Positions 12,153 to 30,400 of a DNA stretch of 64,000 bases are shown piece by piece. The DNA lies in assembly GCF_024600715.1 (NCBI RefSeq), contig NZ_CP102332.1, forward strand, positions 5,332,001-5,396,000, in the 5' to 3' direction. Position 1 is the first letter of the stretch. Each line of letters starts with the position of its first letter. The notes beneath the pieces were generated by a model. It was not told where the DNA came from. It saw only the letters and a list, made by a program, of their open reading frames with translations, and did not search any database. Source of the stretch: Streptomyces changanensis. GTDB lineage: Bacteria > Actinomycetota > Actinomycetes > Streptomycetales > Streptomycetaceae. Both the position numbers and the translations under genes were made by a program.

Positions 12153-13682
12153 TCAGATGTCGCGGAAGATCTCGATCTGGGCGCCGACCGAGTTGAGGCG
12201 CTCGGCGAGGTCCTCGTAGCCGCGGTTGATGACGTAGACGTTGCGCAGGACGGAGGTGCCCTCGGCGGCCATCATGGCCAGGAGGACCACCACGGCGGGG
12301 CGCAGGGCGGGCGGGCACATCATCTCGGCGGCGCGCCAGCGCGTGGGGCCCTCCACCAGGACGCGGTGCGGGTCCAGGAGCTGGAGGCGGCCGCCGAGCC
12401 GGTTGAGGTCCGTCAGGTAGATGGCGCGGTTGTCGTAGACCCAGTCGTGGATGAGGGTCTGACCCTGTGCGGAGGCGGCGATGGCCGCGAAGAACGGGAC
12501 GTTGTCGATGTTCAGTCCCGGGAACGGCATGGGGTGGATCTTGTCGATGGGCGCCTCCAGCTTGGAGGGGCGCACCGTCAGGTCCACGAGCCGGGTGCGG
12601 CCGTTGTCCGCGGTGTACTCGGTGGAGCGGTCGTGGTCGAGGCCCATCTCCTCCAGGACCGCGAGCTCGATCTCCAGGAACTCGATGGGGACCCGGCGGA
12701 TCGTCAGCTCCGACTCCGTCACCACGGCGGCGGCGAGCAGGCTCATCGCCTCGACCGGGTCCTCGGAGGGGGAGTAGTCGACGTCCACGTCGATGTGGGG
12801 GACGCCGTGGACGGTGAGGGTCGTGGTGCCGATGCCGTCGACGCGTACGCCCAGGGCCTCCAGGAAGAAGCAGAGGTCCTGGACCATGTAGTTGGAGGAC
12901 GCGTTGCGGATGACGGTGGTGCCGTCGTGGCGCGCGGCGGCCAGCAGCGCGTTCTCGGTGACGGTGTCGCCGCGTTCGGTCAGGACGATGGGACGGTCGG
13001 GGGAGACCGACGGGTCGACCTGGGCGTGGTACAGGCCCTCGGTGGCCGTGATGTCGAGACCGAACCGGCGCAGGGCGATCATGTGCGGCTCGATGGTGCG
13101 GGTGCCGAGGTCGCAGCCGCCGGCGTAGGGCAGCTTGAAGGAGTGCACGCGGTGCAGGAGCGGCCCGAGGAACATGATGATCGAGCGGGTGCGGCGGGCC
13201 GCGTCCGCGTCGATCGCCTCCATGTTCAGCTCGGCGGGCGGCGCGATCTCCAGGTCGCGGCCGTCGTTGATCCAGCGGGCGCGGACGCCGATGGAGCTGA
13301 GGACCTCCAGCAGCCGGTAGACCTCCTCGATCCGTGCGACGCGGCGCAGGACGGTGCGGCCCTTGTTCAGCAGGGAGGCGCACAGCAGGGCCACGCAGGC
13401 GTTCTTGCTCGTCTTGACGTCGATGGCGCCGGAGAGGCGGCGGCCACCGACCACCCGGAGGTGCATGGGTCCGGCGTAGCCCAGCGAGACGATCTCGCTG
13501 TCGAGTGCCTCGCCGATACGGGCGATCATCTCAAGGCTGATGTTCTGGTTTCCGCGCTCGATGCGGTTGACGGCGCTCTGGCTGGTGGCCAGCGCCTCGG
13601 CGAGCTGCGTCTGTGTCCAGCCGCGGTGCTGGCGGGCGTCACGGATGAGCTTGCCGATGCGTACGAGGTAGTCGTCTGCCAT
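12153..13682 (-). CDS. XRE HTH domain fused to a MurA-like enolpyruvyl transferase
   Basis: A 509-residue protein. Residues 8-62 are an XRE-type helix-turn-helix (KLIRDARQHRGWTQTQLAEA, SQSAVNRIERG). Residues 72-509 follow the EPT fold of UDP-GlcNAc 1-carboxyvinyltransferase; K93-N94 match MurA K22-N23, and the catalytic loop AGGCDLGTRTIEPH keeps the cysteine at C190 (E. coli C115). The late MurA loop is less conserved. The start overlaps no ribosome site; a TAnnnT element six bases before ATG suggests a leaderless message. It resembles S. coelicolor SCO5998, the second 'MurA' next to acnA. Role is unknown: a regulator built on a metabolite-binding EPT fold, or a secondary enolpyruvyl transferase. 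Confidence 0.85.
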   Translation of the reverse strand: MADDYLVRIGKLIRDARQHRGWTQTQLAEALATSQSAVNRIERGNQNISLEMIARIGEALDSEIVSLGYAGPMHLRVVGGRRLSGAIDVKTSKNACVALLCASLLNKGRTVLRRVARIEEVYRLLEVLSSIGVRARWINDGRDLEIAPPAELNMEAIDADAARRTRSIIMFLGPLLHRVHSFKLPYAGGCDLGTRTIEPHMIALRRFGLDITATEGLYHAQVDPSVSPDRPIVLTERGDTVTENALLAAARHDGTTVIRNASSNYMVQDLCFFLEALGVRVDGIGTTTLTVHGVPHIDVDVDYSPSEDPVEAMSLLAAAVVTESELTIRRVPIEFLEIELAVLEEMGLDHDRSTEYTADNGRTRLVDLTVRPSKLEAPIDKIHPMPFPGLNIDNVPFFAAIAASAQGQTLIHDWVYDNRAIYLTDLNRLGGRLQLLDPHRVLVEGPTRWRAAEMMCPPALRPAVVVLLAMMAAEGTSVLRNVYVINRGYEDLAERLNSVGAQIEIFRDI

Positions 13683-13688
13683 AGAGGC

Positions 13689-13709
13689 AGGCTATCTCAG
13701 ATATGAGAT
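13689..13709 (-). promoter_or_regulatory. Leaderless promoter and ATCTC-N6-GAGAT operator of the HTH-MurA gene
   Basis: On the minus strand TAGCCT (13694-13689) lies six bases before the ATG, the spacing of a -10 box for a leaderless transcript. Directly upstream is the dyad ATCTC (13694-13698), six bases, GAGAT (13705-13709), in fact ATCTCA-GATA-TGAGAT. It would lie between -10 and -35 and so could serve autorepression by the encoded HTH. Confidence 0.55.
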
Positions 13710-14086
13710 GGCCTTCTCGTTGGGCTGCGCCATCCGCGTCAGCGGGACGTATCAGCGCATGTCAGGACCTGTGCACCGGGCGCCGGTTGGCTGTCGGCGG
13801 CGGATGAGGCCGCGTCACCCCTCCCTGGGTACCCCGCTTCGCCGGCTTCTCTCGGAAAACCCCCGAAGTTGCCCGAATCGGACGGATGGCCTTCGGGGTG
13901 GTGCCGAGGGGTGCCGCCGAGGGAGTGGCGCGGAGGGGCCGGTGAGAGGCGGGCGGGCGCGTCACGCGTTCACAAGCGCATCGCGTGCGGCAACGCACCC
14001 GTGGTTCACGGACGGCAAGCGACCTAAGTTATGCCGGAACATCACCACAAGCAACATGCCAGGGGAAACCCGGTAGGGATACAGCG
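13710..14086. other. Divergent intergenic region, HTH-MurA gene / MMPL gene
   Basis: About 380 bases with no open frame I would defend. Apart from the operator at its left end I see only AT-richer stretches near 14020-14080 that probably hold the MMPL promoter. Confidence 0.5.
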
Positions 14087-16519
14087 ATGTTGACCCGACT
14101 TGCCCGTCTCGCCATCAATCGGCCGAAATGGGTCCTCGTCGGCGCGCTACTGGTCGTGGTCTTCTGCGGCGTCTTCGGTGCGTCGGTGACGGATCGGCTG
14201 AAGGCCGGCGGGTACACCTCGCCGGACTCCGAGTCGGCCCGTGCCGCGAAGCTCGTCAACGAGCACTTCGACGGCGCCCAGCCCAACCTCATCGTCGCCG
14301 TGACCACCGGCGCCGGGGCCGACGCGGGTGCCGGGGCGGCCGCGGGCGCGGGCGTCGACAGCGCCGCGGCGCGCCGCGCGGGCGCGCGGATCACGGAGTG
14401 GATGGGCGCGCGCGACGACATCGAGGGCGTGCAGTCCTACTGGACCCTCGGGCCGCAGGCCGGTGCCGCGCTGCGCAGCGAGGACGGCGCCAGCGGTCTC
14501 GTCATGGCGCGCATCGACGCCAGCGACACCGACCTGCCGAAGATCGCGGAGCGGGTGAAGGCGGACCTCCCGCGGCCGGAGGGGGTCACCGTGCGGGTCG
14601 GCGGCTACGGCCCGCTCACCGCCGAGATGGAGAGTCAGGTCACCCGGGACGCCACCATCGGCGAAGCCGTGGCCTTCCCCATCTCCCTCATCGTGCTCGT
14701 CGTCGTCTTCGGCAGCCTCGTCGCGGCCGGCCTGCCGCTGCTCATCGGCGCGGTCTCCATCGTGACGACGCTCGCCATCCTGCGCCTGGTCACCACCTTC
14801 GCGGACGTGTCCATCTACGCCCTCAACATGACCACCGTGCTCGGGCTCGCCCTCGGCATCGACTACAGCCTCTTCATGGTGAGCCGGTTCCGCGAGGAGC
14901 TGCGCAACGGCCTCGACGTCCCCGCCGCGGTCCTGCGCACCGTCCAGACGGCCGGCCGTACCGTCATGTTCTCCGCGGTGACGGTGGCGCTCGCCCTCGC
15001 CGCGCTCATCGTCTTCCCGATGTTCTTCCTCAAGTCGTTCGCGTACGTCGGCGTCGCCGTCGTGCTCGCCGCGGCCCTCGCCGCCGTCCTGGTGCTGCCC
15101 GCGGCCCTCACCCTGCTCGGCCACCGCGTCGACAGGTACGACGTCCGCGTCCCGCTGCGTCGCTGGTTCGGGATGAAACCGCCGCGGTGGGTCGCGCCGG
15201 AGGAGAGCCGCTGGTACCGGATGGTCGTGGCCGTCACGCGCCGCGCCGTGCCCGTCGCCGTCCTCACCACCGTCGGTCTGCTGGTGCTCGGCGCGCCCTT
15301 CCTGTCGTCCAAGTGGGGGTACCCCGACGACCGGGTGATCGCCGCGTCCGCCGCCGAGAGCCGCCAGGTCGGCGACCTGCTGCGGGAGGAGTTCGCCCAG
15401 GACGCCGCCGCCTCGATGACCGTCGTGCTGCCCGGCTTCGACGGCGGGGCCCGCGAACTCGCCCCGTACGCCACGGCGCTCTCCCGTGTCGACGGCGTGT
15501 CGACCGTCGTGAGCGGCGGCGGCACCTTCGCCGACGGGGCGCAGGTCGGCCCCGCCGCGGCCGGGATGGTGAACGACGCGGGCGCCGTCGTCCGCGTCGG
15601 CACCGCCGTCGACCCGTACTCCGACGACGGCGAGCGGCTGCTGACCGCCCTGCGCGACGTACGGGGACCGGGCGAGGCGCTCTTCGCCGGCGCCGCGGCC
15701 GAGAACCAGGACGTGCTGGACGCCCTCACCGGGCCGCTGCCGTACGCGGCCGCGCTCATCGCGCTCACCATGTTCGTGCTGCTGTTCCTCTTCACCGGCA
15801 GCGTGGTGCTGCCCGTGAAGGCGCTGCTGATGAACACGCTGTCGCTCGCCGCCGCGTTCGGCGCGATGGTCTGGGTCTTCCAGGAGGGCCACCTCTCCGG
15901 CCTTCTCGGCTTCACGCCGACCGGCTACCTCGTCGCCAACATCCCGGTCCTGATGTTCTGTCTGGCGTTCGGCCTGTCGATGGACTACGAGGTGTTCCTG
16001 CTCTCCCGCATCCGCGAGGAGTGGCTCGCCTCCGGCCGCACCACCACCGAGGACAACACGCACGCCGTCGCGATGGGCGTCGCCAGGACCGGTCGCGTCT
16101 TCACCGCCGCCGCGCTCCTCATGGCCATCGTCCTGATCGGCATGGGCGTGTCGAAGGTGTCGTTCATGCAGCTCTTCGGGCTGGGGCTCGCCCTGACGGT
16201 CCTGGTGGACGCCGTCGTCGTCCGCTGCCTGCTCGCCCCGGCCATGATGCGGCTGATGGGCCGTTTCAACTGGTGGGCGCCGCCCGCGCTGAGCCGGCTG
16301 CACGCCCGTATCGGCCTCACGGAGGAGGCGCACCCGGCCCCGCCGGCCGACCGGCACGAGCCCGCCGCGGCCGGCGGCGCGTCCGCCGGAGCCCCGGCGC
16401 CCACCGGCGACCCGACCACCGGAGCCGCCCGTACCGACGGGACCGTACGGACCGACGGGACCGCCCGTACCGACGGGACCGCCCGTACCGACGGGACCGT
16501 ACGGACCGACGGCCGCTGA
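14087..16519 (+). CDS. MMPL-family (RND) transporter
   Basis: An 810-residue polytopic protein with the duplicated MMPL layout: a first transmembrane helix at about residues 15-35, an external loop to about 190, five helices to about 345, a helix near 385, a second external loop to about 540 and five more helices to about 725. Family signatures include ALGIDYSLFMVSRFREE near residue 261 and FGLSMDYEVFLLSRIREEW near residue 630, with the paired charged residues used for proton coupling. Such proteins export lipids or antibiotics. Start ATG 14087 follows TAGGGA. The C-terminal ~80 residues are disordered and end in an RTDGT repeat. Gene stands alone; substrate unknown. Confidence 0.9.
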   Translation: MLTRLARLAINRPKWVLVGALLVVVFCGVFGASVTDRLKAGGYTSPDSESARAAKLVNEHFDGAQPNLIVAVTTGAGADAGAGAAAGAGVDSAAARRAGARITEWMGARDDIEGVQSYWTLGPQAGAALRSEDGASGLVMARIDASDTDLPKIAERVKADLPRPEGVTVRVGGYGPLTAEMESQVTRDATIGEAVAFPISLIVLVVVFGSLVAAGLPLLIGAVSIVTTLAILRLVTTFADVSIYALNMTTVLGLALGIDYSLFMVSRFREELRNGLDVPAAVLRTVQTAGRTVMFSAVTVALALAALIVFPMFFLKSFAYVGVAVVLAAALAAVLVLPAALTLLGHRVDRYDVRVPLRRWFGMKPPRWVAPEESRWYRMVVAVTRRAVPVAVLTTVGLLVLGAPFLSSKWGYPDDRVIAASAAESRQVGDLLREEFAQDAAASMTVVLPGFDGGARELAPYATALSRVDGVSTVVSGGGTFADGAQVGPAAAGMVNDAGAVVRVGTAVDPYSDDGERLLTALRDVRGPGEALFAGAAAENQDVLDALTGPLPYAAALIALTMFVLLFLFTGSVVLPVKALLMNTLSLAAAFGAMVWVFQEGHLSGLLGFTPTGYLVANIPVLMFCLAFGLSMDYEVFLLSRIREEWLASGRTTTEDNTHAVAMGVARTGRVFTAAALLMAIVLIGMGVSKVSFMQLFGLGLALTVLVDAVVVRCLLAPAMMRLMGRFNWWAPPALSRLHARIGLTEEAHPAPPADRHEPAAAGGASAGAPAPTGDPTTGAARTDGTVRTDGTARTDGTARTDGTVRTDGR
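16430..16516 (+). repeat. 15-base repeat coding the RTDGT tail of the MMPL protein
   Basis: Six in-frame copies of a five-residue unit R-T-D-G-T (last copy RTDGR), with alternate third bases, at the very C terminus. The unit also contains CGTACCGACGG, close to an inverted copy of CCGTACGG, so slippage is likely. Confidence 0.8.
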
Positions 16520-16770
16520 GCCACCCGGTCGGCCCCGCCGCCCCGCCTCCGCACGGCATGACGTGGCCGTCGTCGCGGGGGCCGGGGCCCGTGGGCGGCC
16601 GCGCTCCCACGACACGCCCACCGGTGAAGATCCTGTGATCTCCCGTCCCGCCCCCGCCGCCGGGTGGGAGAAAGGGGCGGCGTCGTCGCGCTTTTCGCCG
16701 GCGACCCTCCGCACGCCCGGTGTTGTACCGTGAGCGGGCGGTTGCCGGGGGCAGCGAAGGGCACGGAGCG

Positions 16771-17133
16771 GTGGCAGAGTACTTGCTGTTGATCTACGAG
16801 GACGAGGCGCGGACGAGTGCCCTGGAGCCGGCGGACGACGCCGCGCTCGTCGACGAGTTCCAGCGGTTCATGGCGCGCAACGCCACCCGGGTGCGCGAGG
16901 GCAGGCGACTGGCGCCGACCTCCGCGGCCGTGTCCGCCCGGCGGGACGTCGACGGCGGCGTGCGGATCAGCGACGGCGCGTTCGTCGAGTCCAAGGAGGT
17001 CGTCGCCGGGTACTTCCTCGTCGAGGCCGCCGACCTGGACGAGGCGCTCGCCGTCGCCGGACAGGTCCCCGTACCGCACGGAGGCGTCGAGGTTCGCCCG
17101 ATCCGCTCCGTCCGGCCGACACCGGACGCCTGA
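16771..17133 (+). CDS. YCII/DGPF-domain protein, partner of an ECF42 sigma factor
   Basis: A 120-residue YCII-related (DGPF) protein, VAEYLLLIYEDEA at the N terminus, SDGAFVESKEVVAGYFLVEA in the middle, which is the DGPF segment, and a final PHGGVEVRPI strand. Start GTG 16771 follows GGAG. It ends 16 bases before the ECF sigma gene. ECF42 sigma factors are regularly coded beside DGPF proteins, which are thought to take part in their signal or output; the exact chemistry is unknown. Confidence 0.85.
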   Translation: MAEYLLLIYEDEARTSALEPADDAALVDEFQRFMARNATRVREGRRLAPTSAAVSARRDVDGGVRISDGAFVESKEVVAGYFLVEAADLDEALAVAGQVPVPHGGVEVRPIRSVRPTPDA

Positions 17134-17149
17134 CATCGACGACCCCCCG

Positions 17150-18391
17150 ATGGACGCGACCGTCGCGTCGGTGGTCGCCGACGCCCACCGCCGGCAGTGG
17201 GGCTTCGTGCTCGCGGCGACCGTACGGGTCACCCGCGACCTCGACCTGGCCGAGGAGTGCGTGCAGGAGGCGTACGCCCAGGCGCTCACGCAGTGGGCCG
17301 GCGGCGGCGTACCGGACCGGCCCGAGGCGTGGCTCACCACCGTCGCCCGGCGCCGCGCCGTGGATGTCGTCCGCCGCCGCGACACCCTGCGCGACAAGCT
17401 GCCGCTGCTCGCCGAGGACGACACCGCGCCCCCCGCCGACCAGGACATCGCGGGCCGGGACATCCCAGACGACCGGCTGCGGCTGATCTTCACCTGCTGC
17501 CACCCGTCGCTCGACGTCGACACCCGTGTGGGCCTCACCCTGCGGCTGGTGTGCGGTCTGTCCACCGCGGAGACCGCCCGCGCGCTGCTCGTCTCCGAAC
17601 CGGCGATGGCCGCCCGCATCACCCGCGGCAAGAAGAAGATCAAGGCGGCCCGCATCCCCTACCGGGAGCCCCCGCCCGAGGAGCTGCCCGCGCGCGTGGA
17701 CGCCGTCCTCGACGTCGTCCACCTCGTCTTCAGCACCGGCTACACCGCCCCGTCCGGCGACCGGCTCCAACGCCGCGACCTGGTCGAACGCGCCGAGCAC
17801 CTCGCCCGCGTCCTGCACCAGCTGCTGCCCGGCAGGTCCGGGCCGGCCGGGCTGCTGGCGCTCATCCTGCTGACCGACGCCCGGCGGCACACCCGCACGC
17901 GCCCCGACGGCTCCCTCGCGCCGCTCTCCGAACAGGACCGCACGCGCTGGGACGCCGCGCAGATCCAGGAGGGGCTACGGCTGGCCGGGACCGCCCTGCG
18001 GCACCGGCCGCCCACGCGGTACGCGCTCATGGCCGCCGTCGCCGCCGTCCACGCGCGCGCCCCCGGCTGGGAGGCCACCGACTGGCCCCGCATCGTCGAC
18101 CTGTACGACACGATGCTGCGGGTGTGGCCGTCGCCCGTCGTGGCGCTCAACCGGGCCATCGCCGTCGGCCAGGCGCGGGGGCCCGCCGCCGGCCTGGCCG
18201 CGCTCGACGAGCTGGTCGCCGAACGACAGCTGGCCGGCTACCAGTACCTCGCCGCCGCCCGCGCCGACTTCCTGCGGCGGCTGGGGCGGGCCGGCGAGGC
18301 GCGGACGGCCTACCGCGAGGCGCTGCGCGTCACCGAGAACGCCGTCGAGCGCGAGTTCCTGGAGTCGCGCCTGGAAGAACTCGGCGACTGA
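17150..18391 (+). CDS. ECF42-type RNA polymerase sigma factor with C-terminal extension
   Basis: A 413-residue sigma factor. Sigma-2 lies at residues 10-80 (LAEECVQEAYAQALTQW, PEAWLTTVARRRAVDVVRRR), sigma-4 at about 105-165 (LTLRLVCGLSTAETARALLV), and the rest is a long helical, TPR-like extension typical of ECF42. The family-specific DDRLRLIFTCCHP segment is present at 103-115. No anti-sigma gene is next to it, as expected for ECF42, where the extension itself is regulatory. The start ATG 17150 has no clear ribosome site and is probably translated by coupling to the DGPF gene. Confidence 0.9.
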   Translation: MDATVASVVADAHRRQWGFVLAATVRVTRDLDLAEECVQEAYAQALTQWAGGGVPDRPEAWLTTVARRRAVDVVRRRDTLRDKLPLLAEDDTAPPADQDIAGRDIPDDRLRLIFTCCHPSLDVDTRVGLTLRLVCGLSTAETARALLVSEPAMAARITRGKKKIKAARIPYREPPPEELPARVDAVLDVVHLVFSTGYTAPSGDRLQRRDLVERAEHLARVLHQLLPGRSGPAGLLALILLTDARRHTRTRPDGSLAPLSEQDRTRWDAAQIQEGLRLAGTALRHRPPTRYALMAAVAAVHARAPGWEATDWPRIVDLYDTMLRVWPSPVVALNRAIAVGQARGPAAGLAALDELVAERQLAGYQYLAAARADFLRRLGRAGEARTAYREALRVTENAVEREFLESRLEELGD

Positions 18392-18436
18392 TCGCACCGG
18401 ATTGTCGATCCGGGCGTCCGCTCGTCCGACGTACGG

Positions 18437-20167
18437 GTGAGGAGCCTCAGAGGGAGGCCCCAGCCGTATGGGGGAGCGTTGACCAGCTCGGCCGAAGCCG
18501 TGGTCCCCGTCAGGACCGAGGCCCGTACGCACACACGCCCGGCAGCAGCACCACCGCCCCGGGAACGGGTCCCGGCGCGCGTGCCGCTGCGTTCCGTCGA
18601 CGGCGGCCCCACCGCCGCGCCGGCCCCACCGCCCGCCGGCCGGCCGCCCGCCGGGGAGCCGCCCGCCGGGAGGCTGACCGCCGGTGGGCGGCGCACCGGG
18701 GAGCCGACCGCCGGACCGGCGGGCCGGGCTGCCGGATCGGCTGCCGCGCCCCGGCGGCCCGCGCGGGAGCCCCGCCCCGCGGAGCCCCGCCCCGCGGAGC
18801 CTCGCCCCACGGAGCCCCGTCTCACCCCGCCACCCACCGCGGTATCCCCGACGCGCGAGGCCTCCGCGGCTGTCGCGACGGACGAGCCCGCCGAGCCCGC
18901 CGAGCCCGCCGCGCCACCCGCCGGGCGGGCCGTCACGCTCGCCGAGCGCCGGGCACTCACCCACGCGTACGCCACCCGGTACGCCCGCGCCGGCAAGCGG
19001 GAGAAGTCACGGATCCTCGACCGGGTGTGCGCCGCCACGGGATGGCACCGCAGCCACGCCCGCCGCGCGCTGCTGGACGCCTCCCGACCCCGGCCGGCCA
19101 GGCCCGCGCGGGGAGGGCGGACCCCCTATGACGCGGACGTCGTCGCCGCGCTCACCTTCTGCTGGACGATCCTCGACATGCCCGCGGGCAAGCGGCTCGC
19201 GCCGGTACTGCCCGAGCTGGTGCCCGTACTGCGCCGCCACGGTGAGCTGGCCGTCGACGACGAGACCGCGGCGCTCCTGACGGGGATGTCCGCCGCGACG
19301 ATCGACCGCCGTCTGGCGCCGCTGCGCCGCCGGTCCGACCCGGTCCCGGTCGCACGCATCCGGCCCGGTTCGCTGCTGCGGGACGAACCGCCCCTGCTCA
19401 CCTTCGCGGAGTGGGACCACTCCAGGCCCGGCTTCCTGGAGGTCGCGGTCGTCCACCACGACGCCGGCGGCGGGCGTGACGGGCACGGGGAGCCGGAGCG
19501 GGACGCACACGGGGAGCGGGGCGGCCACCTCCTGACCGTGTCCGCGACCGACATCGCCACCGGCTGGTCCGAGAACCGCACCGTCCGCGCCGTCAACTGG
19601 CTGCCGTACGCGCTGGACGAGATCGCCGGTACGCTCCCCTTCCCCGTCCTCGGCATCGAGTCAGGCGCCCACGGTGACGCCCGGACCGGGGAGATGCTGC
19701 TGAGATGGTGCGAGCAGCGCGGGGTCACCCTCACCCGCGCCCGCCCCTCCCGGGCCGGTAACCACCACGTCGGGCAGAAGAACTGGAGCACGCTGCACGC
19801 CGTCACCGCCGGCCACCGCTACGACACCCGCGCGCAGGCCCTGCTGCTCAACCGGATCTGGGCGACGCTGTCACAGCTGACGAACCACTTCTCCCCGCAG
19901 CAGCACTCGGTACGGGTGACCGGCCCGGACGGGCGGCGGCGCAAGGAGTACGACACGGCCACGCCGCTGCGGCGTACCGCGCGCCACCCCGCGGTGAGCG
20001 CGGAGGACAAGGCGATCCTCGCCGACACCCACGCCCGCCTCAACCCGGCAGCGCTGCACCGACGGGTCCGGGTGCTGACGGGCCGCCTCCACCTGACGGT
20101 GGCGGGCGGCGCGGCAGCGGCCCACTCAGCGGAGCGCCCCGGCAGGGCGCCCGGCGCCGCCTCCTGA
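18437..20167 (+). CDS. Transposase/integrase-like protein (rve fold) without catalytic acids; probably domesticated
   Basis: About 576 residues; the start is uncertain (GTG 18437, or TTG 18479). The first ~150 residues are proline/alanine/arginine-rich and disordered, with an AEPRP repeat. From about residue 160 (VTLAERRALTHAYATRYARA, SRILDRVCAATGWHRSHARR) it follows the helix-turn-helix and rve integrase domains of ISNCY-type transposases, with ATDIATGW, LPFPVLGIES, CEQRGVTLTRARP and HHVGQKNW in order. The three DDE positions appear replaced: FLEIDTV reads FLEVAVV (A337), IDSDNGSEF reads IESGAHGDA (G410) and HVEQKNW reads HVGQKNW (G446). No terminal inverted repeats are visible. It is intact and has normal codon use, so it looks retained for DNA binding rather than transposition. 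Confidence 0.7.
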   Translation: MRSLRGRPQPYGGALTSSAEAVVPVRTEARTHTRPAAAPPPRERVPARVPLRSVDGGPTAAPAPPPAGRPPAGEPPAGRLTAGGRRTGEPTAGPAGRAAGSAAAPRRPAREPRPAEPRPAEPRPTEPRLTPPPTAVSPTREASAAVATDEPAEPAEPAAPPAGRAVTLAERRALTHAYATRYARAGKREKSRILDRVCAATGWHRSHARRALLDASRPRPARPARGGRTPYDADVVAALTFCWTILDMPAGKRLAPVLPELVPVLRRHGELAVDDETAALLTGMSAATIDRRLAPLRRRSDPVPVARIRPGSLLRDEPPLLTFAEWDHSRPGFLEVAVVHHDAGGGRDGHGEPERDAHGERGGHLLTVSATDIATGWSENRTVRAVNWLPYALDEIAGTLPFPVLGIESGAHGDARTGEMLLRWCEQRGVTLTRARPSRAGNHHVGQKNWSTLHAVTAGHRYDTRAQALLLNRIWATLSQLTNHFSPQQHSVRVTGPDGRRRKEYDTATPLRRTARHPAVSAEDKAILADTHARLNPAALHRRVRVLTGRLHLTVAGGAAAAHSAERPGRAPGAAS

Positions 20168-20394
20168 CGACGACGACGTACGACACGACCCCGCGCCCGG
20201 CGCCGCCGCGCCCCGGCACCCCACCCCACCCCCCCCGCACCCCAGGCCCCGCGACGGGCCGGCCGCCGCGCAGGCCGCCCGACCGCGGGGCCCCGGGACA
20301 CACCGGCGCGCCGGGGCGGACAGGGCCACACGGGGGCGATGGAGGGGCGCCGAGACGCCGGGGCACCGGGAAAGGAGCACCAGACCACCGACGG

Positions 20395-20770
20395 TTCGAT
20401 CACCGGCCCCGGGACCACCCGGCCACCGGCCCCTGGGATCACCCGACGGGACCCCGACCCCTGGCCACCGGCCCCCAGACCACCCGACCCCGGGGCCACC
20501 CGACAACCGGGACCATCCGGCCCCGGGGCTACCCGACAACCGGGACCATCCGGCCCCGGGGCCATCCGGCCCCGGGATTAAACGGCCCCGGGATTAAACG
20601 GCACCGGCACCGGCCCCAGGCCCCCTGACCACCCGGCCCCCAGGACTGACCGGCACCGGCACCGGCCCCCGGACCACCCTGCCCCCAGGGCTGTCCGGCA
20701 CCGGCCTCAGGCCCGGGGGGGGCCACCCGGCCCCCGGCCACCGGCCCGGCCCCCGGGGCCGCCTGGCCTC
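20395..20770. repeat. GC-rich repeat tract between the integrase-like gene and the GGPP synthase gene
   Basis: The 624-base gap 20168-20791 has no credible gene. Its right two-thirds is degenerate repeat of CCGGCCCC and CCACC words. Clear units are a 33-base repeat at 20488-20520 and 20521-20553 (one mismatch), CCCCGGGGCCATCCGG at 20554, and two copies of CCCCGGGATTAAACGG at 20570-20601. The two tracts of TTAAA are the only A/T-rich bases there. Confidence 0.8.
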
Positions 20771-20791
20771 CGGTGGGCCGCGACACCCTCC

Positions 20792-21880
20792 TCACCGGCT
20801 CCGCTGCGTCGCGCTGAGGGCCATCGCCGCGAGACGTTCCCGCGCGGGGCGGGTCGCGGCGCTGCGCTCCAGGACGGCGACGGCCCGGTCGCGGCGGCGG
20901 GTGATCTCGCGCTCGACGTACGCGACCGCGCCCAGGCCGACGAGGATGGCGCGGACCGAGTCGAGGTCGTCCTCGGAGACGTCCGTGCCGATCCTGCTGC
21001 GGAGGAAGCGCGCCGCTGCCGGGTCCCGGTCGTCCGCCCGTCGCAGGGCCGTGGCCAGCAGCACCGTGCGCTTGCCCTCGCGGATGTCGTCCCCCGACGG
21101 CTTGCCGGTCACCTCCGGGTCGCCGAAGACGCCCAGCACGTCGTCACGCAGCTGGAAGGCGAGGCCGATGTCGGCGCCGAAGGCCCGGTACGCGGCGACG
21201 AGGCCCTGGTCGGCGCCGGCGGCGGCCGCGCCGACGTGCAGGGGCCGCTCCACCGTGTACGAGGCCGTCTTGTACCGGTCCTTGAGCAGCGCGGCGTCGG
21301 CGCTCTCGTCGCCGCGGGCCTCGGCCGCCAGGTCGAGGAGCTGCCCGCACAGGACCTCGGTGCGCATCGCGGACCAGACCGGGCCGACGCGGGTCATGGC
21401 GTCCGCCGGCAGCCCCGACGTGCGGACCAGGTCGTCGGCCCAGACGAGGGCGAGGTCGCCGACGAGGAGGGCGGCGCCCGTGCCGTACGCGTCGGGGTCG
21501 CCCGACCAGCCCCGTTCCCGGTGCCGGTCGGCGAAGGCGACGTGCGCCGAGGGGAAGCCGCGGCGGGTGCGGGACGCGTCGACGATGTCGTCGTGGATCA
21601 GCGCCGAGGCGTGCAGCAGCTCCAGCGCCGCGCAGGTCCGCAGCACCGCCGGGGCGGTCGGGCCGTCCGGGTCGCCGCCGGCGCCCAGCCAGCCGGTCCA
21701 GGCGAACGTCGGCCGCACCCGCTTGCCGCCGCGCAGCACGTACTCCTCCAGGTCGGCGACCGCCGTGGCGTAGCCCTCGCCGATCGCCGCGGCCCCGGCC
21801 CGGCGCTCGGCGAGGAAGGTCCGCAGCGCCGCGTCGACGGCTGCCGTGCCGGCCGTGACCTCGGGGTGGTCGACGGTCAT
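20792..21880 (-). CDS. Trans-polyprenyl (geranylgeranyl) diphosphate synthase
   Basis: A 362-residue prenyl elongase with GGKRVRP near residue 51, first aspartate motif DDIVD at 97-101 and second motif RDDVLGVFGD at 245-254. It condenses IPP with allylic diphosphates; the residues before the first motif are small (A91, S92), which fits a C20 or longer product. It is the last of three leftward genes, starting 7 bases after the UbiA gene stop, so its product should be the allylic donor for that prenyltransferase. Product length cannot be fixed by inspection. Confidence 0.88.
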   Translation of the reverse strand: MTVDHPEVTAGTAAVDAALRTFLAERRAGAAAIGEGYATAVADLEEYVLRGGKRVRPTFAWTGWLGAGGDPDGPTAPAVLRTCAALELLHASALIHDDIVDASRTRRGFPSAHVAFADRHRERGWSGDPDAYGTGAALLVGDLALVWADDLVRTSGLPADAMTRVGPVWSAMRTEVLCGQLLDLAAEARGDESADAALLKDRYKTASYTVERPLHVGAAAAGADQGLVAAYRAFGADIGLAFQLRDDVLGVFGDPEVTGKPSGDDIREGKRTVLLATALRRADDRDPAAARFLRSRIGTDVSEDDLDSVRAILVGLGAVAYVEREITRRRDRAVAVLERSAATRPARERLAAMALSATQRSR

Positions 21881-21887
21881 GCGCGGG

Positions 21888-22895
21888 TCACCGTCCGATC
21901 AGGACGGAGGCGGCGAGCACCACCGTCGCCCAGCTGAGCAGGGAGGAGTGGTACGGCCCGAGGAGCGACTTCCCGTGCAGGTCGGCGACGGCCTCGTGGA
22001 GCGGCGCCCGGCGCACGTCGCGCACGACGGCGTCGAGGAACCGGATGCTCACCAGCCAGGCGGCGAGGAACGGCAGCAGCCCCCACGAGAAGCCGAACGT
22101 CGCCGGCACGGAGACGAGGATCAGCACCCCGCCCGCGACGAGCATCGCCAGCTGCACCCGGAACGCCCGGACCAGCCCCAGGGCGCGCACGTAGGTGCGG
22201 ATGCCGAAGCGCCCGTCCACGAGGTAGTCCTCGCCGTGGCTGGTGACGAAGAGGGAGGTCAGGGCCAGTGCGAAGCCGAGGACGGCGACGACCGACCCCC
22301 ACTCCAGCGGATGGCCGAAGGACCACAGCACGAACAGGCCCGGCAGGAACACGCAGCCGTTCTGCAACGCGAGCAGCTGCCACAGCCCGGCGCTCTTGAG
22401 GTGCAGCGGCGGCAGGGAGTACTGGAAGCCGATGAGCCCGGCGGCGAGCGCCGGCAGCAGCATCCCCCACTGCTGGGCCCGCACGGTGAGGTAGAGGGCG
22501 AGGGCCGCGCAGACGGCCGTCGACACGGCGATGTGCGCCACGACGCGCGGCACGCCCAGCCCGTACACGGCGTCCGACTGCCGCGACTTCAGCTGTCTGT
22601 CCTGCTCGCGGTCGGCCAGGGCGTTCGTCATGTTCGCGACCTGGAGGCCGGAGATGACGTAGACCAGGGCGAGCACCGCGTCGAGCGACGCGAATTCCCC
22701 CCAGGAACGCGCGCCCAGAAGGGCCGGTGTGAGGACGAGCGGAACATAGACGGGGAGGAATTCGTAGCGCCGGATGACGAGCGCGTACTTCAGGCGCGCG
22801 GCCAGCGGGGCACGCTCGCCGGGCACACCCCGGGGATCGGTCAGAATGGCGGCGAATTTCGCACCGAGTGTCGTGGCGGTGCCAGTGCTCGACAC
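21888..22895 (-). CDS. UbiA-family membrane prenyltransferase
   Basis: A 335-residue membrane protein of about eight or nine helices. The first aspartate motif is NALADREQD (N91, D95, D99) and the second is EDYLVDGRFG near residue 225; both bind Mg-diphosphate in UbiA enzymes. It should transfer a prenyl chain to an aromatic or other acceptor in the membrane. Start GTG 22895 has GAGAAGGGA before it. Middle gene of the ABM-UbiA-GGPPS operon. The acceptor is unknown; the housekeeping MenA/UbiA route is not indicated by neighbours. Confidence 0.85.
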   Translation of the reverse strand: MSSTGTATTLGAKFAAILTDPRGVPGERAPLAARLKYALVIRRYEFLPVYVPLVLTPALLGARSWGEFASLDAVLALVYVISGLQVANMTNALADREQDRQLKSRQSDAVYGLGVPRVVAHIAVSTAVCAALALYLTVRAQQWGMLLPALAAGLIGFQYSLPPLHLKSAGLWQLLALQNGCVFLPGLFVLWSFGHPLEWGSVVAVLGFALALTSLFVTSHGEDYLVDGRFGIRTYVRALGLVRAFRVQLAMLVAGGVLILVSVPATFGFSWGLLPFLAAWLVSIRFLDAVVRDVRRAPLHEAVADLHGKSLLGPYHSSLLSWATVVLAASVLIGR

Positions 22896-22959
22896 GAGTC
22901 CGTCCCTTCTCCGGTCGGAGGGAGGTGTGGGGTGCGTCCCGGCGGGCGGCCCCACCCGC

Positions 22960-23289
22960 TCAGGCGGCGCCGAAGACCGATGCCACCGAGTAGACGCCCG
23001 GCGCGGGCTTGCCGAGGGCGGCCGTCTTGCGGCCGTACTCCTGGGCGGCGGGGTCGGCGAGGGTCGCCTGGATGTCCTCCTGGCTGCGCCACTGGGCGAG
23101 GTTCACGACCTTCGTGCCGTCCTTGCCGACGAGCACGGTCGCCGAGACGAACCCGGGCCGGTGCCGGAACACCTTCTCGACGCCCTCGTTGAGGAGCGCC
23201 ACGAGTTCGTCCTGCTTCGAGGCCTCCACCTCGAAGACGTTGATGAGGGTGAGCAGATTGTCTTCCGTGCGAATCACCGTTTCAGTCAT
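22960..23289 (-). CDS. ABM-family (antibiotic biosynthesis monooxygenase) small protein
   Basis: A 109-residue dimeric ferredoxin-like fold protein: INVFEVEASKQDELVALLNE, VFRHRPGFVSATVLV, NLAQWRSQEDIQATL are the strand-helix marks of the ABM domain. Members act as cofactor-free oxygenases in polyketide/quinone pathways or as haem-type proteins; no haem-binding residues stand out. It begins the leftward operon ABM-UbiA-GGPPS (64 bases to UbiA) and has a leaderless-type promoter. Confidence 0.8.
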   Translation of the reverse strand: MTETVIRTEDNLLTLINVFEVEASKQDELVALLNEGVEKVFRHRPGFVSATVLVGKDGTKVVNLAQWRSQEDIQATLADPAAQEYGRKTAALGKPAPGVYSVASVFGAA

Positions 23290-23295
23290 GCGCGG

Positions 23296-23325
23296 AAACT
23301 AACAACGCCGGAAAGCCCCGGACAA
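23296..23325 (-). promoter_or_regulatory. Leaderless promoter of the ABM-UbiA-GGPPS operon
   Basis: On the minus strand TTGTCC (23325-23320), an 18-base spacer and TAGTTT (23301-23296), six bases before the ATG at 23289, with no ribosome site. The remaining gap up to the acnA elements (23330-23605) shows only GC-rich sequence with nothing recognised. Confidence 0.55.
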
Positions 23326-23611
23326 CGCCCGCGTTGACTCACGGCCCATGCGCGCAAAGACCCGGTGCGCGGAATTCCGTTTCGGCGCGCGCCGTGGTGT
23401 GCCGCGGCGGGCGTCACGGGTGTGCGGCGGGCTTTCCGCCGGGGGCGCCGCGGCGCGGCGGGGGCCGGTGCGGCCCTGCGGGCTCCGGCGGACGTCGTAC
23501 CGACCGGCCGCTGGGGGGTGCCGCCGGGCCCGGGCTCGGTCGGCCGGGAGGGGCCCGGGACACCTTCCGGTCGCGCCCGGGCATGACCGGGCAGCGGTGA
23601 TGTACTAGAGT

Positions 23612-23629
23612 TATCTCGACATCGAGATA
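23612..23629. promoter_or_regulatory. Perfect palindrome upstream of acnA, containing ATCTC-N6-GAGAT
   Basis: TATCTCGA, two bases, TCGAGATA: an 18-base perfect dyad about 130 bases before the aconitase start. Its core ATCTC-N6-GAGAT equals that in front of the HTH-MurA gene (13694-13709), which suggests one regulator for both. Confidence 0.6.
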
Positions 23630-23670
23630 TCTGCTGACGACGCACCGCGGTCGCCCGTGAGGGTAAGGGT

Positions 23671-23693
23671 CACCTAACTGAGCCTTACCTTAG
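23671..23693. promoter_or_regulatory. Possible iron box (DmdR/IdeR type) upstream of acnA
   Basis: The complement reads TAAGGTAAGGCTCAGTTAGG, agreeing at about 14 of 19 positions with the actinobacterial iron box TTAGGTTAGGCTCACCTAA as I remember it. Aconitase is an iron-sulfur enzyme, so iron control is plausible. The match is weaker in the right half. Confidence 0.35.
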
Positions 23694-23758
23694 CGGATCG
23701 GCGAGAAGCCCTGGCGGCAGGATGCGGTTGAACGCGCACATTGATGAAGGAGACTGTC

Positions 23759-26599
<2,841 letters not shown>

Positions 26600-27486: not shown

Positions 27487-30400
27487 TCACCCGCGGGGTG
27501 GCCGGGCCAGGAGTTCCACCTCCGCCAGCTCCCGGCCCGCTCCCGCTCCCGCGTCCGCGGCGACCAGCCGGTAGGCCCTGTACGCCCCCGGCCGGGCCAC
27601 CGTGAACACCCGCGTCTGGCGGTCCCAGCGGAAGACCTCGCCCGACCGGCGGTCCACCTCCCGCCAGCGGGCGCCGTCCGTCGAGCCCTCCAACACCCAG
27701 CCGTCCGGCGCGGCCGCCGCGGCCGCGGAGGTCAGGGTGTACTGGACCGCGCGGACCGGCCCCGGCACCGGCAGCTCCACCGCGCCCGACACCGGCCCCG
27801 CCGTCGCCGACGTGTCGTCGAACAGCGGGCCGGGACCCGACAGGGCGTCGCGCCGCGGCACGGGCACGCGGTCGTCCCGGGTGACGGAGGCGGGCGCCGC
27901 GTCCGCGCCCGTGCCCCACGTCGAGGGCCGCGGCCCCATGTCGAACTCCAGCGTCCCGCCCCGCGCGAGGAGCCCGTGCGGCAGCGCCGTCGACGTCCAC
28001 TGCCGGCCGTTGACCCGCAGTCCCTGCACGTAGACGTTCCGGGGGCTGTTGCGCGGGGCCTTGACGACGAGCACCGCCCCGTCGTCGGTGCGCACCGTCG
28101 CCTTGGTGAACAGCGGCGACCCGACGGCGTACTCGCCCGCGCCCATCACCAGCGGGTAGAAGCCGAGCGCGGAGAACAGGTACCAGGCCGACTGCTCGCC
28201 GTTGTCCTCGTCGCCGTGGTAGCCCTGGCCGATCTCGCTGCCGACGTACAGCCGGGACAGCACCTCGCGGACCTTCTCCTGCGTCTTCCACGGCTGCCCC
28301 GCCGCGTCGTACATGTACGCGACGTGGTGGGCGACCTGGTTGGAGTGGCCGTACATGCCCATCCGCACGTCCCGCGCCTCCGTCATCTCGTGGATGACGC
28401 CGCCGTACGAGCCGGCGAACTCGGGCGCGCCCGTCTCCGGTGTCGAGAAGTACGCGTCGAGCTTCGCCGCGAGACCGGCGCGCCCGCCGTACAGGTTGGC
28501 CAAGCCCCGGCTGTCCTGCGGGGCGGTGAAGGCGTACCCCCAGCCGTTGGTCTCGGTGTAGTCGTACCCCCACACGCGCGGGTCGTACGAGGCCGACGGC
28601 ACCCGCCACCGGCCGCGCGCGTCGCGCCCCTGGAAGAAGCCGGCCTCCGCGTCGAAGAGCGCCACGTAGCCGCGCGCCCGGTCCAGGAAGTACGCGGCCT
28701 CCTCCCCGTAGCGGGCCTCGCCGGTCCTGCGGTGCAGCTCGCGCGCCATCCGCGCCAGGCCGAAGTCGTTGACGTACCCCTCCATCGACCAGGACAGGCC
28801 CTCGTGCGTCTCCGTCGAGGCGTACCCGGTGAAGGGGGAGGTGGCCATGCCCTTGCGGCCCACGCCCCGGCCCGGCGGGAGCACCGTCGCGTTCTTCAGC
28901 GCCGCCTCGTACGCCGCCTCCGCGTCGAAGCGGACGCCCTTGACGTACGCGTCGGCGAACGCCACGTCCGAGGACGTGCCGGTCATCAGGTCGGCGTACC
29001 CCGGCGACGACCAGCGGGAGATCCAGCCGCCGTCCCGGTACTGCTGGACGAAGCCGTCCACCAGTTCCCCCGCCCGGCGCGGGGTGAGGAAGGAGTAGGC
29101 GGGCCACGTCGTCCGGTAGGTGTCCCAGAAGCCGTTGTTGACGTACACCTTCCCGTCGACGATCTTCGCGCCGGTGTGCGTCGGGGTGTCCGGGCCGGTC
29201 TGCGGGGAGAACGGGCTGGCGTAGCGCCACCGGCCGTCGACCCGCTCATGGCCGGAGTTGGGGTACAGATACAGCCGGTACAGGCCGGAGTAGAGCGTCG
29301 TGAGCTGGTCGCGCGTCGCGCCCTCCACGCGCACCCGGCCGAGGAGGCGGTCCCACTGCGCCCGCGCCGCGGCCGCCACCGCGGCGAACGGCGTGCCCGC
29401 CGGGATCTCCGCGGCGAGGTTGCGCCGCGCCTGTTCCACGCTGATCAGCGACGTCGCCATCCGCAGGTGCACCGTCCGGTCCCGGCCCGCCGCGAACCGC
29501 AGGAAGCCCCGGACGCCCTCCGCCGACGAGGCGGTGACCGGCGCGTCGAACACACCGTGGACGAACATCCGCGTCGCGCCCGTCGACAGACCGCTCTTCA
29601 CGTCCGAGTAGCCGGTGAAGGAGCTCGTCGCCGGATCGAGCGTCAGCCCGCCCTCCTGCGTGATGTTGTCGAAGACCACCGACGCGTCGTCACCGGGGAA
29701 CGTGAACCGCATCGTCGCCGCGTGGTCCGCCGGGGCGATCTCCGCCGTGAGGCCGTTCTCGAAGCGGACCCGGTAGTGGTGAGGTCGCGCCGACTCGTTG
29801 CCGTGACGGAACTCCAGCGCGCGGGCGGCCCGTTCGGTGGGTGGCGCCCCCGGCCCCGGCGCCGCCGACGGCATCACCTGGAACGTCTGCCGGTCGCCCA
29901 TCCAGGGGCTCGGCTCGTGGCTGGCGCTGAACGCCTGGAGCGCGGGCAGGTTGTTCGCGGTGTTGCCGCGCGCGTACTCGTACAGCCAGCTCTTCGACGC
30001 GGCGTTCGTCACCGGCGTCCAGAAGTTGAAGCCGTGCGGCACGGCCGTCGCGGGGAAGGTGTTGCCGCGCGAGAAGGCGCCGCTGGAGTGGGTCCCGCGC
30101 ACCGTCGAGACGTACGCGGAGGGATGGACGTGCGCCGGTTCGGGCGCCGCGCGGCTCAGCGTGACGTCGTCGAGCCACCCCTGGAAGCGGGCGGGTCCCC
30201 GCGGCGCGTCGTACGCCACCAGGATCCGGTCCACGACGCGGCCGGCGGCGACCGCGCCGATGCCGGCCGTGACCTGGTTCCACTGGTTGGCGTAGAGGCG
30301 CTTCGCGGCGGCCTGGCCGCGCGGCGTGAGCACCCCGCCGTGGCTGTCGGTGGCGCGCAGGCCGCTGAGGTAGGTCCCGTCGGTGAAGGCCAGGTCCACG

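Follow-up and report, generated by a model that had tools for sequence, protein, structure and literature searches.

Palindromes with common arms before the HTH-MurA gene and the aconitase gene of Streptomyces changanensis probably belong to two separate operators

The occurrence of two matching palindromes in a 64,000-base window of the Streptomyces changanensis genome (the whole stretch of DNA analysed here) raises the question of whether a single protein controls the genes behind them. One palindrome, ATCTCAGATATGAGAT at 13694-13709, precedes murA2, a gene of the SCO5998 type whose product joins an XRE-type helix-turn-helix (HTH) domain to a MurA fold and is called HTH-MurA here. The other, ATCTCGACATCGAGAT at 23613-23628, precedes acnA, the aconitase gene, and both are exact copies of ATCTC-N6-GAGAT. 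The original prediction saw in them one operator, split by an insertion, through which the MurA-like protein would control the citrate cycle. The present analysis argues for two unrelated operators with common five-base arms, HTH-MurA's own at murA2 and that of the repressor TamR at acnA, with a probability of about 0.85.

That the same palindrome stands before both genes is correct, and the two are the sole exact matches in the window, where 0.01 are expected; none of 100 shuffles contained two. Allowing one mismatch adds a third place at 29405 (0.57 expected), and the whole genome holds five exact places.

The separation of the two sites emerges from cross-scoring. A tamR matrix made from 39 distinct tamR-promoter sites (20.8-37.8 bits in training) gives the acnA site 32.6 bits, the best place in the window, against 1.4 bits for the murA2 site. 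Reciprocally, a murA2 matrix made from 17 distinct murA2 sites (25.5-38.1 bits in training) gives 33.2 bits at murA2 against 10.2 at acnA, and a version built from 12 non-Streptomyces sites only gives 31.6 and 9.4. The best scores among 190 shuffled acnA upstreams are 11.5 for the murA2 type and 7.1 for the TamR type; the 10.2 bits of acnA thus lie within the shuffled maximum and do not speak for a second HTH-MurA target. The palindrome of tamR promoters is found at acnA, with a template that is itself partly acnA-like, and not at murA2. Moreover, the acnA half-sites read CTCG...CGAG, so that CTCA-N4-TGAG, the core of the murA2 site, is broken in both.

The murA2 side of the comparison comprises the following features.

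12153..13682, minus strand: HTH-MurA fusion gene (murA2, SCO5998 type), 509 aa, identified with Pfam and NCBIfam
13689..13694, minus strand: murA2 -10 box TAGCCT (TANNNT), 6 nt before the ATG of a putative leaderless mRNA
13693..13710, minus strand: candidate murA2 operator in an 18-bp frame, with the invariant core CTCA at 13696-13699 and TGAG at 13704-13707
13726..13741, minus strand: candidate BldM-WhiI site upstream of murA2, degenerate, with 9 of 12 fixed bases (motif from PMC4125116)

Upstream regions were read for 58 murA2 orthologues (39 in Streptomyces, 19 in four other families). Of these promoters, 56 contain the exact core CTCA-N4-TGAG, among them all 19 outside Streptomyces, where the outer bases vary (AACTCA in one family) and CTCA/TGAG stays constant; the two without it, G040 and G095, both carry TATCTCACATCCGATATA. 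An independent pattern scan for WTCTCA-N4-TGAGAW places the site at murA2 in 36 of 41 genomes, the search with WTCTCANNNNTGAGAW giving 51 forward hits, 36 at murA2 and 15 elsewhere. The latter are scattered, and a wider HTH-MurA regulon was rejected on this ground. The first palindrome had been placed between the -10 and -35 elements; it does lie in the promoter region but overlaps the -10, its last T being the first T of TAGCCT. This T opens a TANNNT in 57 of the 58 loci and an ATG or GTG follows 6-7 nt after the TANNNT in 53 of them, as is expected for a leaderless transcript with an operator overlapping its -10. The murA2 mRNA is therefore probably leaderless, and a conserved palindrome overlaps the promoter of the regulator gene itself, as in autoregulatory operators. 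The palindrome is most likely the HTH-MurA gene's own operator, with the XRE domain its likeliest binder. A dimer would most likely contact CTCA-N4-TGAG through its two XRE domains; as this site overlaps the -10 of a promoter that is probably leaderless, the bound protein would repress its own transcription. For most Streptomyces, developmental control would come in addition from a BldM-WhiI site some 30 bp upstream of the palindrome. The BldM-WhiI group II motif reaches at least 10 of 12 fixed bases at -56 to -60 in 27 of the 39 Streptomyces loci, against 13 of 1160 shuffles, in keeping with the footprint described for murA2 of S. venezuelae in PMC4125116. None of the 19 murA2 promoters outside Streptomyces reaches 10 of 12.

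The acnA side is made up of four features.

23582..23588, plus strand: CATGACC, likely acnA -35 region, 17 bp before the -10 and kept in 29 or more of the 30 loci
23606..23611, plus strand: acnA -10 box TAGAGT (TANNNT), immediately before the operator; a TANNNT stands at this position in 30 of 30 acnA loci by heptamer counts
23612..23629, plus strand: TamR-type operator before acnA, TATCTCGACATCGAGATA, 32.6 bits with the tamR matrix
23759..26599, plus strand: acnA (aconitase), identified with Pfam and NCBIfam; the open reading frame is listed from TTG 23741, and GTG 23759, picked by eye from the ribosome-binding site, is the likelier start

The palindrome lies about 130 bp upstream of this likely start codon and directly 3' of TAGAGT, and TATCTCGACATCGAGATA is identical, core included, at acnA in 36 of the 36 Streptomyces read (30 taken from 121 genomes for their best scores, plus six others). 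Written as TATCTCGA-NN-TCGAGATA, it would be the operator of TamR, an aconitase repressor of the MarR/UrtR family. In S. coelicolor, TamR represses genes of the citric acid cycle, the aconitase gene among them, and citrate and trans-aconitate release it, according to the available portions of PMC5487221 and PMC6391409. In the genome studied here the aconitase gene would likewise be a target: palindromes of the same type precede tamR and acnA, with looser matches before tam, idh and mdh. Relaxed matching of the acnA motif finds eight places in the genome, compared with one for the reversed pattern used as control. The assigned places are acnA, the interval from a MarR gene to tam (trans-aconitate methyltransferase), and the upstreams of idh and mdh; the other four (L070-L073) were viewed as lists of open reading frames only. 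In the second of these, TTTCTTGACGTCAAGAGA separates tam, which scores above its NCBIfam cut-off (344 vs 320), from a MarR_2 match at C1:2731958. The mdh product is also above its cut-off, and that of idh matches the isocitrate dehydrogenase model below the cut-off since the locus was cut short. Among tamR relatives (80 kept of 522 found, 79 from Streptomyces or an unnamed actinobacterium and 1 from Kitasatospora), the motif is present upstream of all 80, with template scores of 11-14 out of 14 against 5-11 in 1600 shuffles. Because the acnA operator directly follows the -10, TamR sitting there would keep acnA shut off until citrate or trans-aconitate builds up.

The phylogenetic distribution of the two sites further separates them. 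Among 18 non-Streptomyces genomes selected for carrying HTH-MurA, a TamR-type site of 28.4-37.2 bits stands before acnA in 17, and the murA2 promoter keeps CTCA-N4-TGAG in the 15 in which it was read; where the two genes share a contig (seven genomes), 16 kb to about 2.5 Mb separate them. In 20 genomes without a full-length HTH-MurA, a TamR-type site of at least 28 bits precedes acnA in 12 of 19 readable upstreams, and in two Streptomyces with acnA far from murA2 (G105 and G047) each gene retains its own site. The presence of the acnA site without HTH-MurA, or far from it, indicates that the acnA operator is independent of that protein, and on sequence grounds the site is of the TamR type. The acnA sites outside Streptomyces are mostly TATCTTGA..TCAAGA, with arms mostly TATCTT/AAGA, and the Streptomyces copy has C for T in both half-sites, which produces ATCTC/GAGAT. 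The common arms are therefore a local resemblance and most likely a coincidence; this T-to-C variant of the TamR half-site is also seen in the absence of HTH-MurA (TATCTCGACATCAAGATA, L293).

The supposition that HTH-MurA binds both sites as one shared operator, tying the supply of cell-wall precursors to aconitase, draws on the identical arms and spacing in the only two copies of the window, and on gene order. The genes had been taken to be neighbours in S. coelicolor, and they are indeed divergent neighbours in 46 of 50 Streptomyces genomes, the comparison being confined to genomes whose acnA match is full-length; the other four have them on different contigs (three) or 5 Mb apart (one). Start-to-start distances in the 46 run from 318 to 13,850 bp with a median of 2,041; at 10,059 bp the gap here is enlarged, as had been proposed, but not unique, since 3 of the 46, the S. 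changanensis window included, reach at least 10 kb. The two sites do not coincide in any genome read, the closest pair noted being 183 bp apart (L045). The acnA score of 10.2 bits also lies below every murA2 training site. Together, the cross-scores, the family comparison and the acnA sites of genomes lacking HTH-MurA make this shared operator highly improbable. The notion that the XRE domain recognises both palindromes survives at murA2, where the site behaves as the fusion gene's own operator, and is not supported at acnA. The same holds for control of the citrate cycle by a MurA-like protein, given a TamR-type site that is present without HTH-MurA and lacks an intact core.

The converse, that TamR or a related MarR protein occupies both sites, has an even slimmer chance. 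The outer bases TATCTC are shared, and in the related PecS family conservation is highest in the outer six bases, as stated in PMC6391409; however, the 1.4 bits of the murA2 site fall below the best shuffled score, and the murA2 core accompanies the HTH-MurA gene where acnA is no neighbour. A regulator other than HTH-MurA at the murA2 palindrome, for example a developmental one, is unlikely. Other regulators have been linked to this promoter in print: three papers describe BldM-WhiI footprints at S. venezuelae murA2 (PMC4125116), SigB-dependent transcription of SCO5998 (PMC8346170) and the prediction of a DmdR1 site in the SCO5998-SCO5999 interval (PMC12161575). The BldM-WhiI motif as described there is non-palindromic, however, and lies further upstream, and it was rejected as the palindrome's own motif; outside Streptomyces it does not exceed 9 of 12 in 19 of 19 promoters and the palindrome stays. 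The palindrome, in addition, accompanies the HTH-MurA gene and is nearly single-copy.

Several observations weigh against the reading of two unrelated operators. The name TamR is given to the MarR gene for its position next to tam and for the motif, not from the SCO3133 sequence, and the tamR sites were placed with an acnA-like template, which means that the tamR matrix is not blind. One genome with HTH-MurA (G122) has no TamR-type site before acnA, as is the case for 7 of the 19 acnA upstreams in genomes without HTH-MurA. The murA2 site is degraded or missing in 5 of 18 further Streptomyces promoters, picked partly as exceptions (exact core in 13, degraded in G008, G014, G024 and G112, none in G017, near a contig start). 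Finally, acnA ranks second among the murA2-type places of the window, and the outer six bases are common to the murA2 and acnA sites, the part that is most conserved in the PecS family. Weak cross-binding of HTH-MurA at acnA is thus conceivable.

If the palindrome at murA2 is an operator of HTH-MurA, as favoured here, the nature of this protein becomes of interest. Its XRE HTH spans residues about 9-64 and its MurA/EPSP-synthase fold about 74-505 (Pfam HTH_3 and EPSP_synthase). Full-length or nearly full-length orthologues occur in 120 of 121 genomes of the genus at 85-100% identity, a tally that includes one split over two contigs (G028) and one matching from residue 5 (G017); the sole exception, G050, is an 82% complete genome with a weak MurA match only. 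Outside the genus, full-length HTH-MurA at 64% identity or more is found in 25 of 137 genomes of a class sample, in six families by label (in G197 as two pieces). As with canonical MurA, the domain aligns along its whole length with a solved structure and keeps Cys115 and Asp305 in all 58 HTH-MurA proteins; of ten active-site residues, these two included, nine are kept in the 58. It differs from canonical MurA by the added HTH, by Ala at the position of Asp369 in all 58, and by a score below the murA equivalog cut-off, although above that of a MurA subfamily model. The genome holds a second MurA match besides. The XRE HTH of the PRK08154 subfamily matches the N-terminus at 5.8e-08, below its cut-off. 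That subfamily is the anaerobic benzoate regulator of the BoxR type, in which an HTH is joined to a shikimate-kinase-like domain. As in such regulators, an enzyme fold replaces the sensor domain in HTH-MurA; here the fold is MurA, nine of ten active-site residues are kept, and a conserved operator candidate lies at the gene's own promoter. Between the recognition helix and the outer arms, N-to-H and T-to-A changes are not strictly coupled.

The favoured role for HTH-MurA is that of a sensor of UDP-GlcNAc or phosphoenolpyruvate (PEP) coupled to autorepression; catalysis may persist alongside. A bolder and tentative proposal is that of an enzyme turned regulator, in which a MurA fold with its UDP-GlcNAc/PEP pocket and Cys115 kept, Asp369 lost and an XRE domain fused would read the supply of cell-wall precursors and, in several actinobacterial families, switch the leaderless promoter of its own gene, perhaps weakly occupying the acnA site as well in Streptomyces. 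The gene known in print as MurA2, SCO5998 or sven5810 is the same by name, by its place beside acnA and by its BldM-WhiI promoter site; the accessible portions of those accounts describe it as a UDP-GlcNAc transferase controlled by other regulators, and CTCA-N4-TGAG and autoregulation are absent from them. In the open-access literature searched, no report of regulation by an HTH-MurA protein was found.

The proposed link from a cell-wall-precursor sensor to the citrate cycle is thereby removed, and two testable statements replace it. The acnA half is in line with the TamR circuit known from the literature and places TamR-type acnA operators well beyond Streptomyces. The murA2 half provides a precise candidate operator, CTCA-N4-TGAG, for a protein of nearly every sampled Streptomyces genome that is usually named a MurA enzyme or a plain helix-turn-helix protein. 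If true, it would be a regulator built on the fold of an antibiotic-target enzyme, which could explain the retention of a second MurA-like gene.

A number of minor observations concern the same loci. The murA2-acnA interval (window 13985-22955) is a variable spot, from 0.3 to 13.9 kb among the 46 Streptomyces; here the gap contains genes for an MMPL transporter, an ECF-type sigma factor, a polyprenyl synthetase and a UbiA-like protein, together with an open reading frame without a Pfam match. The degraded murA2 palindrome TATCTCACATCCGATATA is common to three genomes, G040, G095 and G024 (L031, L106, L243). Away from murA2, ATCTCAACGTTGAGAT recurs in G002, G021 and G039 and may be a second target or the site of another regulator. 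The operator upstream of tamR lies mostly at -51, -66, -81 or -96, in steps of 15 bp (L132-L211). Between the acnA operator and start codon, at 23660-23700, is a stretch that resembles an iron box of the DmdR1/IdeR type. Several acnA promoters of family f17 seem to hold two TamR-type palindromes 27-28 bp apart (L279, L281-L287, L289), and the aconitase frame of L264 (G257) contains one internal TGA.

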